In this document: piece by piece, positions 29,880-31,773 of the stretch
Numbering within the stretch: the first letter of the stretch is position 1
How the letters are laid out: every line of letters starts with the position of its first letter
Source: Bdellovibrio sp.
GTDB taxonomy: Bacteria > Bdellovibrionota > Bdellovibrionia > Bdellovibrionales > Bdellovibrionaceae
Length of the DNA stretch: 38,111 nt
NCBI GenBank assembly: GCA_014376935.1
Contig: JACMQO010000172.1
Span: 1 to 38,111, forward strand
Direction: 5' to 3'
The notes under the pieces: model-generated
The model's database searches: none
Told to the model about the DNA's origin: nothing
What the model saw: the letters and a program-made list of their open reading frames with translations, nothing else
Translations under genes and position numbers: made by a program

Positions 29880-30881
29880 TCAAATGCCAACAGTATATTC
29901 AACTCTGAGTTTCATTTGTTCAAAAAGATCGCGATCAGTTTGATTTTGAGGGTTCCAAAGGCAGCCTTGAAACGTCTTGCTTAAGCGTAACTCATCGATA
30001 ATCGCCTGATGAGTTCCCATTTTATTAGCAGTCCATTTCGGAGCCACTAATTCTTCCCAACGCGAAGCAAAAGCCGCAAGGCGGTGAACGGCGATGTGCG
30101 GCTTAAGGTAAGATAAAAATAATTTTACTTTTTCGGTGTAAGCTTCTTGCGAAATCGGCTCAAACTGGCCAGCAGCGTGCCATTTCTCAAGTTCGGTATT
30201 TTTTAAAACATGCAAATTATGAAGTTTAATATTGGTGATCGGTAAATCATTACAGATTTTTGCAGTCTGAATAATTTGTTCATCGGTTTCGTTCGGTGAT
30301 CCAAAAATTAAATGAATTCCTAAATCGACCGTCGTATTTCCGGTTATTTTGTAAATGGCTTTAATTGAATCATCGGCCGTGTGTCCACGTTGCATGAAGT
30401 TTAAATGTTCGTCGTAAAAACTTTGAACGCCAAGCTCGACCGAAACGAAAGACTTTTCATGAAACTCTTGCCATAAGTTTAAAACGGCTGGAGACAGGCA
30501 GTCTGGACGGGTGCCTACGACGAAACCTTTTACGAAATCGTATTTCAAAGATTGTTCAAAGTTTTGTCGTAATGCCGAAGTCTTCGTGAAAGTATTGGTG
30601 TAAGCCTGAAAGTAGACTAAGAAATTTTTAGAATTATAGCGTTTGGCGATAAGTCCCTTGAATTTCTCGATTTGCTCATCCAAGGTTAGTGTGAATGACT
30701 CAGATCTGGCGGCAGATCCCCACACATCGCAGAAGCTGCAAGTCTTCATACCCTTTAAGCCCATACGATTCGGGCAGTCGTCCACAACACTGACCGGAAT
30801 TTTATAGATTTTCTCTCCAAAAATTCTTTTGTAGTGTTCTGAAATCGAATGATAGGGTAAGCCGGTCCAACCTTTTTCCAT
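29880..30881 (-). CDS. Radical SAM protein of the YhcC/YtqA (TIGR01212) family
   Basis: The N-terminal iron-sulfur motif is C36-PNRMGLKGMKT-C48-SF-C51, the long-spaced CPNRDG...CxxC pattern specific to the TIGR01212 family (E. coli YhcC, B. subtilis YtqA), followed by VGTRPDCL and SVELGVQS. The ATG at 30881 is preferred: upstream sequence to 30971 runs into the divergent gene and is not typical. There is no visible Shine-Dalgarno site. The start is only 16 bases from the start of the methyltransferase on the other strand. Recent work, from memory, links YtqA to a tRNA wobble-uridine pathway together with YtqB; this is not shown here. Confidence 0.85.
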   Translation of the reverse strand: MEKGWTGLPYHSISEHYKRIFGEKIYKIPVSVVDDCPNRMGLKGMKTCSFCDVWGSAARSESFTLTLDEQIEKFKGLIAKRYNSKNFLVYFQAYTNTFTKTSALRQNFEQSLKYDFVKGFVVGTRPDCLSPAVLNLWQEFHEKSFVSVELGVQSFYDEHLNFMQRGHTADDSIKAIYKITGNTTVDLGIHLIFGSPNETDEQIIQTAKICNDLPITNIKLHNLHVLKNTELEKWHAAGQFEPISQEAYTEKVKLFLSYLKPHIAVHRLAAFASRWEELVAPKWTANKMGTHQAIIDELRLSKTFQGCLWNPQNQTDRDLFEQMKLRVEYTVGI

Positions 30882-30897
30882 AAGGAGCGAATATAGA

Positions 30898-31773
30898 GTG
30901 AATGGGTCGACGAAGCAATCAGTGAAACCAAGACTGAAGCAAACGGCAAACCCTTTTCCGGGCTCGCACAATCAGTCATTTAATGAATTGGGTTATACGG
31001 TCGAGCTTACCCGTGACGATAGCCCTACGCTTCGTCTAAAGCCCACGGACGAAGAAATTCGAACTCAGCGAATGTCTGAGGCGATGCACCACTCGGGTGG
31101 AGCGGCTTTAGAAAGCTGGTATATCTACGGAGACGTGATTGGAAAAGTTTTTCAAAATGCCTCGAAAATAGAGCCTATCAAGGTTTGCAGCGTTGGCCTG
31201 GGGTTAGGTTACATCGAAATGATATGGGCCTTATGCGCCGTTCATCACAAACAGAAAGTGCAATCCAGCATCCAAATTGACAGCTTCGAAATTGATCCAG
31301 GATTGGTTTCTTTTTTCTTGTCTTGGATCAGGCAAGAAAATAAAGTCTCGTCGGCCGTTTACGACCTAGCATTTCAAAAATTAGTCGAAGCTAACCCCTT
31401 ATTTTCGGCTCATTTAAAAGTAGAGGTGCAAAACCTGCTGTCCAGCTCGTTGAGCCAAAATTTTTGTCTGCACAAAAATGTGCGCGACTTTAAAAAAACA
31501 AAAAGATGGGATGTTGTTTGTTACGACGCCTTTAGTAAAAAATTTTCTGAAGACATTTGGCGCGAAGACTTTTTGAATGAATTCTTAAAAAACCACTGTA
31601 GTGATGACTGCGTCTTTACCACGTATGCCTACACAGCCGAACTGAGGCGGGTATTAGAACAACACAATTTTATTTTTATTGAACGGCCGGGATTTTGTAA
31701 TAAAAGAAAGTCGACCCTAGCTGTACGTGGGTTTACTACGACTTTCGAGCTACAAACTCGTTACTCTCGTTAA
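30898..31773 (+). CDS. MnmC-type tRNA methyltransferase domain, stand-alone
   Basis: The SAM-binding loop is SVGLGLGYIE (about 98-107), and EAMHHSGGAALES plus WDVVCYDAFSKKFSEDIW and FTTYAYTAELRRVL are the pattern of the MnmC N-terminal methyltransferase domain. In E. coli the full MnmC also has an FAD oxidase domain; here the protein is 291 residues and that domain is absent. The family methylates 5-aminomethyl-uridine at tRNA position 34. The GTG at 30898 has AAGGAG ten bases upstream. The gene is divergent from the radical SAM gene and its end overlaps the convergent small gene by 38 bases. Confidence 0.8.
   Translation: MNGSTKQSVKPRLKQTANPFPGSHNQSFNELGYTVELTRDDSPTLRLKPTDEEIRTQRMSEAMHHSGGAALESWYIYGDVIGKVFQNASKIEPIKVCSVGLGLGYIEMIWALCAVHHKQKVQSSIQIDSFEIDPGLVSFFLSWIRQENKVSSAVYDLAFQKLVEANPLFSAHLKVEVQNLLSSSLSQNFCLHKNVRDFKKTKRWDVVCYDAFSKKFSEDIWREDFLNEFLKNHCSDDCVFTTYAYTAELRRVLEQHNFIFIERPGFCNKRKSTLAVRGFTTTFELQTRYSR

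Follow-up and report, generated by a model that had tools for sequence, protein, structure and literature searches.

MnmEG forms cmnm5U at the tRNA wobble position from glycine, and Jaroch 2024 reportedly found MnmL to be required for mnm5s2U in Bacillus and Streptococcus. In E. coli, the steps after cmnm5U are assigned to the bifunctional MnmC, which joins an FAD oxidase domain (MnmC1) to a methyltransferase domain (MnmC2). In Bacilli, the genes of a TIGR01212 radical SAM protein, MnmL, and an SAM methyltransferase, MnmM (PF06962), adjoin on the same strand (YtqA-YtqB; Cho 2023, PMC9976899), and PMC12548931 cites Jaroch 2024 for MnmL and nm5s2U. We found this order, the TIGR01212 gene followed by MnmM, in gene neighbourhoods of Listeria, Anoxybacillus, Enterococcus, and several streptococci. 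The stand-alone MnmC2 of Aquifex aeolicus (DUF752, 3vyw) has no oxidase domain at all.

The window analysed here, a stretch of 38,111 nucleotides from a Bdellovibrio sp. assembly, contains a pair of genes that resembles these systems in part. One is an mnmL-like radical SAM gene (29880..30881, minus strand; TIGR01212, 333 aa, ATG at 30881), and the other encodes a stand-alone MnmC2-like methyltransferase (30898..31773, plus strand; Methyltransf_30, 291 aa, GTG start); both were confirmed as intact and real. As in the Bacilli pair, a TIGR01212 protein with the C-x-[FY]-C-x-x-x-GS motif adjoins an SAM methyltransferase, with MnmEG present and MnmC1 absent. Unlike that pair, the genes are divergent, the methyltransferase belongs to Methyltransf_30 rather than PF06962, and MnmM is missing; what stands beside MnmL is MnmM in Bacilli but an MnmC2-like protein in the window.

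The two genes lie head to head, as the sequence-only reading had described, with the 16 bases 30882..30897 between their start codons. This gap holds no room for two promoters, so promoter elements must sit within the opposite genes. AAGGAG (30882..30887, plus strand), which probably serves the methyltransferase gene as its ribosome-binding site, is placed 10 bases before the GTG and abuts the opposite-strand radical SAM start codon (30870-30900). A TTG at 30971, given as the radical SAM start in the table of open reading frames, is less likely, because the gene would then overlap the methyltransferase gene. Among 29 class loci, the median gap between first ATGs is 48 bases, and it is below 100 in 22 of them. 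The pair is flanked by ribonucleotide reductase on one side and by small unrelated genes (a cyclase domain, PilZ) on the other.

Our preferred reading, also the simplest, to which we give a probability of roughly three in four on the basis of sequence comparison and structural models, is a hybrid pathway in which an enzyme of the MnmL type and an MnmC2-like methyltransferase complete mnm5(s2)U34. MnmE-MnmG would place cmnm5 on U34; the radical SAM gene product is the proposed enzyme for cmnm5(s2)U34 to nm5(s2)U34, removing the carboxymethyl group as the FAD oxidase domain of MnmC does; and the Methyltransf_30 protein is proposed to methylate the aminomethyl nitrogen with SAM, turning nm5(s2)U34 into mnm5(s2)U34, which is the job of MnmM in Bacilli. 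The analysis shows which genes are present, that the pair is conserved, that MnmC1 and MnmM are lacking, and that motifs and folds are intact; the two reactions, the sequence in which they run, and the final nucleoside are inferred.

The radical SAM protein scores 243 bits against TIGR01212, above the curated equivalog cut-off of 180, and also matches the Pfam models Radical_SAM and Radical_SAM_C. TIGR01212 is an equivalog model whose current NCBIfam name is ‘tRNA modification radical SAM protein MnmL/YtqA’. The motif C36-x11-C48-x2-C51, which binds the iron-sulphur cluster (codons at 30729..30776, minus strand, located by translation and alignments), is intact, and its three cysteines are invariant in an alignment of 29 homologues. 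The nearest solved fold to the AlphaFold model (pLDDT 90) is Elp3, and the sequence search agrees with this. Elp3 is the radical SAM enzyme that modifies wobble U34 in archaea and eukaryotes. At one other listed locus (L067, G158:C152), a single TAG stop is reported within the open stretch of the TIGR01212 frame, which sets it apart from the remaining listed loci.

Membership in TIGR01212 is not by itself evidence of MnmL function, because E. coli holds the family member YhcC together with a full MnmC. The sequence-only reading had lumped YhcC with YtqA, and this grouping did not hold up. While the window protein shares family membership with E. coli YhcC, the latter coexists with the complete MnmC, has no methyltransferase neighbour, falls in a separate clade, and carries C-N-x-x-S-F in place of the GS motif. 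A form such as C-N-x-x-S/T-F follows the cysteines in E. coli YhcC, in Bacteroidota, and in family f17, whereas the window protein groups with the MnmM-linked motif. In the radical SAM tree, the window clade stands apart from YhcC; its backbone support of 11 is too weak to place it relative to the MnmM-linked clade.

The methyltransferase scores 42 bits against PF05430 (Methyltransf_30; cut-off 22). Searched alone against PDB sequences, it matched only the stand-alone Aquifex MnmC2, and a profile built from 26 class methyltransferases matched 3vyw at 1e-22 and the E. coli and Yersinia MnmC at about 1e-10 or better, with no PDB matches besides MnmC2 and MnmC entries. The predicted fold is that of MnmC2: for a model of pLDDT 78, made from a shallow alignment of five sequences, the first nine fold matches are all MnmC2 or MnmC, led by 3vyw and followed by E. 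coli and Y. pestis MnmC, with TM-scores of about 0.5. In E. coli MnmC, Asp178 is catalytic, Glu101 binds SAM, and Lys236 binds RNA (PMC3648344); the aligned residues D210, E131, and K269 of the window protein are invariant in 39 sequences. The Aquifex enzyme, the best match in both sequence and fold, has the catalytic Asp, the Glu, and the KRK motif in common with it, and the homologous MnmC2 domain of the bifunctional E. coli MnmC would serve the same pathway step.

In other respects the protein is divergent. Against NF033855 (MnmC2), it reaches 65 bits, under the cut-off of 136, which no class genome passed in the profile scan. Following the catalytic Asp, both Pro182 and the NP motif are lost, with DAFSKKFSEDIW instead of DGFAPAKNPDMW, and a class-specific insert precedes this Asp. 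In an unrooted tree, the class clade (96) lies outside the clade (95) of E. coli, fused, and f17 sequences. Its identity to Aquifex MnmC2 is only about 20%, and it is linked to MnmL, has lost the NP motif, and carries the extra insert, all unlike the Aquifex enzyme. The label ‘MnmC type’ in the sequence-only reading is thus borne out by family, fold, and active site but does not extend to orthology: because it falls below the NF033855 cut-off and forms its own clade, we regard the protein as apparent kin of MnmC2, not as a certified MnmC2 orthologue. A tblastn search of plasmids with the methyltransferase returned zero matches.

The missed cut-off, the absent P182/NP motif, and the separate clade also count against the hybrid reading itself, as does the weak backbone of the radical SAM tree. 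These three traits of the methyltransferase would suit an enzyme that uses another wobble substrate and, together with the radical SAM enzyme, yields a product other than mnm5(s2)U, as would the class-specific insert and the existence in the phylum of further Methyltransf_30 subfamilies that are fused to TGT and presumably have a different job. We consider this distinctly unlikely, given that the catalytic Asp, the SAM-binding Glu, and the RNA-binding Lys are retained, that sequence matches fall only on MnmC2 and MnmC structures, and that MnmL is reported to make nm5U, which is the MnmC2 substrate. The version in which the methyltransferase evolved separately as the partner of MnmL and makes another wobble-uridine derivative instead of mnm5(s2)U is very unlikely; if it were true, the U34 nucleoside of Bdellovibrionia would be one not yet described.

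The hybrid pathway also agrees with the gene content of the host genome, which is 99.5% complete in 192 contigs. MnmE and MnmG are encoded together on contig C155, and there is one MnmL and one MnmC2-like gene. No MnmC oxidase domain (TIGR03197) over the cut-off, fused or separate, was found in this genome, and no match to MnmM (PF06962); a full MnmC, an MnmC1, or an MnmM elsewhere in the genome was accordingly rejected, and this check, named with the sequence-only reading, did not refute it. Unlike in E. coli, where MnmC contains the FAD oxidase domain, the oxidase step is assigned here, provisionally, to the radical SAM enzyme. The best MnmC1-like protein of the host, the DAO protein L008 on contig C9, was rejected as an MnmC1: it scores 79 bits against a cut-off of 174 and does better on the pipecolate and sarcosine oxidase models, which points to another amine oxidase.

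An unrecognised FAD oxidase such as L008 could still be imagined to remove the carboxymethyl group. The 79 bits of L008 are in keeping with this, and so is PMC7408541, which reports an MnmC(o)-like activity in B. subtilis that is SAM-independent; this result is hard to square with a radical SAM protein being the sole source of such activity. We hold this to be highly improbable, since L008 fails the cut-off and prefers other oxidase models, and at 1e-20 the MnmC1 model finds a match in only three of the 109 genomes of the class.

Conservation also supports the preferred hybrid reading. MnmG is present in 106 of the 109 class genomes, while MnmC1 over the cut-off and MnmM (PF06962) were each found in none (0/109). 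The phylum sample includes 86 class genomes: both genes of the pair occur in 81, MnmL only in one (G089), and neither in four; these four belong to three genera and all retain MnmG. The joint loss of MnmL and the methyltransferase gives a Fisher p of 2e-6, a value that ignores kinship and is indicative only. Of the 82 class genomes that have MnmL, 76 encode the methyltransferase divergently beside it, two encode it beside MnmL on the same strand, three have it on another contig, and one lacks it. The recurrence of divergent adjacency in 76 of 82 genomes is far beyond chance, and the MnmL-methyltransferase pair is old; the pairing that had been noticed in a single stretch of DNA is strongly conserved, and this second check did not refute the sequence-only reading either. 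Across the 241 phylum genomes, MnmL occurs in 126 and MnmC1 in 20, with an overlap of zero (Fisher p 1e-7, which likewise ignores kinship and is indicative only), and both states also occur within a single family, f16. We consider the divergent linkage across many genera a stronger argument than the Fisher values.

Outside Bdellovibrionia, no adjacency of MnmL and MnmC2 (within about 4 kb) was seen among the 80 best loci of a genome-wide scan. One more head-to-head TIGR01212/Methyltransf_30 pair was observed beyond the class but within the phylum, in family f15 (L057 and L058); its methyltransferase is much diverged and has HDPFG as its aspartate motif.

The same patterns bear on a rival account, in which MnmEG makes nm5U directly with ammonium, the methyltransferase completes the modification, and the radical SAM protein does some other, YhcC-like job. 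E. coli MnmEG does use ammonium in vivo, giving nm5U directly, and MnmC(m) works independently of MnmC(o) (PMC3936742), so that a demodifying partner is not a strict requirement for MnmC2. Orphan methyltransferases do exist, as shown by family f17, which mostly has MnmC2 without MnmL or MnmC1. However, this account leaves unexplained why the methyltransferase co-occurs almost perfectly with the radical SAM gene, is absent together with it, and is linked to it head to head, and also why MnmL and MnmC1 exclude each other; we judge it unlikely.

Returning to the hybrid pathway, the mixed route proposed by the sequence-only reading is well supported by the presence of MnmE and MnmG, the absence of MnmC1 and MnmM, and the retention of the pair; its claim that a radical SAM enzyme replaces the oxidase had already been published for MnmL. 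The use of a radical SAM enzyme instead of the oxidase is known, and so, since Aquifex, is a stand-alone MnmC2. The mixed element is only the pairing of MnmL with an MnmC2-like rather than an MnmM methyltransferase, and in these Bdellovibrio-like predators the locus appears to combine known kinds of enzyme in a new and conserved way, with no new enzyme kind. We found no description of a class-wide head-to-head arrangement of MnmL and an MnmC2-like gene without MnmC1 or MnmM in the literature searched, which left out Jaroch 2024 and Kitamura 2012.

Cho et al. 2023 raised, without answering it, the question of where nm5U comes from in organisms that have an orphan mnmC(m) and lack mnmC(o) (PMC9976899); the locus offers a specific, class-wide candidate enzyme, strongly backed by linkage. 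A further suggestion from the locus is that the pathway's last two steps can be exchanged as modules, with an oxidase or a radical SAM enzyme for one and a methyltransferase of the MnmC2 or the MnmM type for the other. A TIGR01212 protein is encoded in an Aquificaceae MAG (L199), and the partner of the stand-alone Aquifex MnmC2 may likewise be a radical SAM enzyme.

Other Methyltransf_30 proteins in the phylum occur in different settings. The genomes of loci L035-L045 and most family f17 genomes have a stand-alone MnmC2 without MnmC1, mostly also without MnmL. A gene for a protein of about 450 aa, weakly HD-like, is a recurrent neighbour of this orphan MnmC2, and the neighbour search showed no consistent oxidoreductase beside it.

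TGT is the queuine/preQ1 tRNA-ribosyltransferase; it places preQ1 at position 34, and the aminomethyl group of preQ1 resembles that of nm5U. In families f16, f12, and f19, full-length TGT (TIGR00430, 465 bits) is fused at its C terminus to a Methyltransf_30/MnmC2-like domain, giving proteins of about 690 aa. Examples are L128 (286-2358, plus strand) and L134 (1478-3484, minus strand), and further fusions are found in L129-L132 and L135. The TGT-fused domains form a clade apart from MnmC2 in the tree. Our guess is that the fusion might N-methylate the aminomethyl group of preQ1 at position 34; the literature search returned nothing on methylated preQ1, and these fusions are possibly more novel than the MnmL-methyltransferase pair. 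Some class genomes additionally encode another Methyltransf_30 paralogue, whose motif is DPYSP (L077, 1378-2250; L082, 1444-2322; L105, 1315-2172), which is kin to the TGT-fused domains and does not adjoin tgt.
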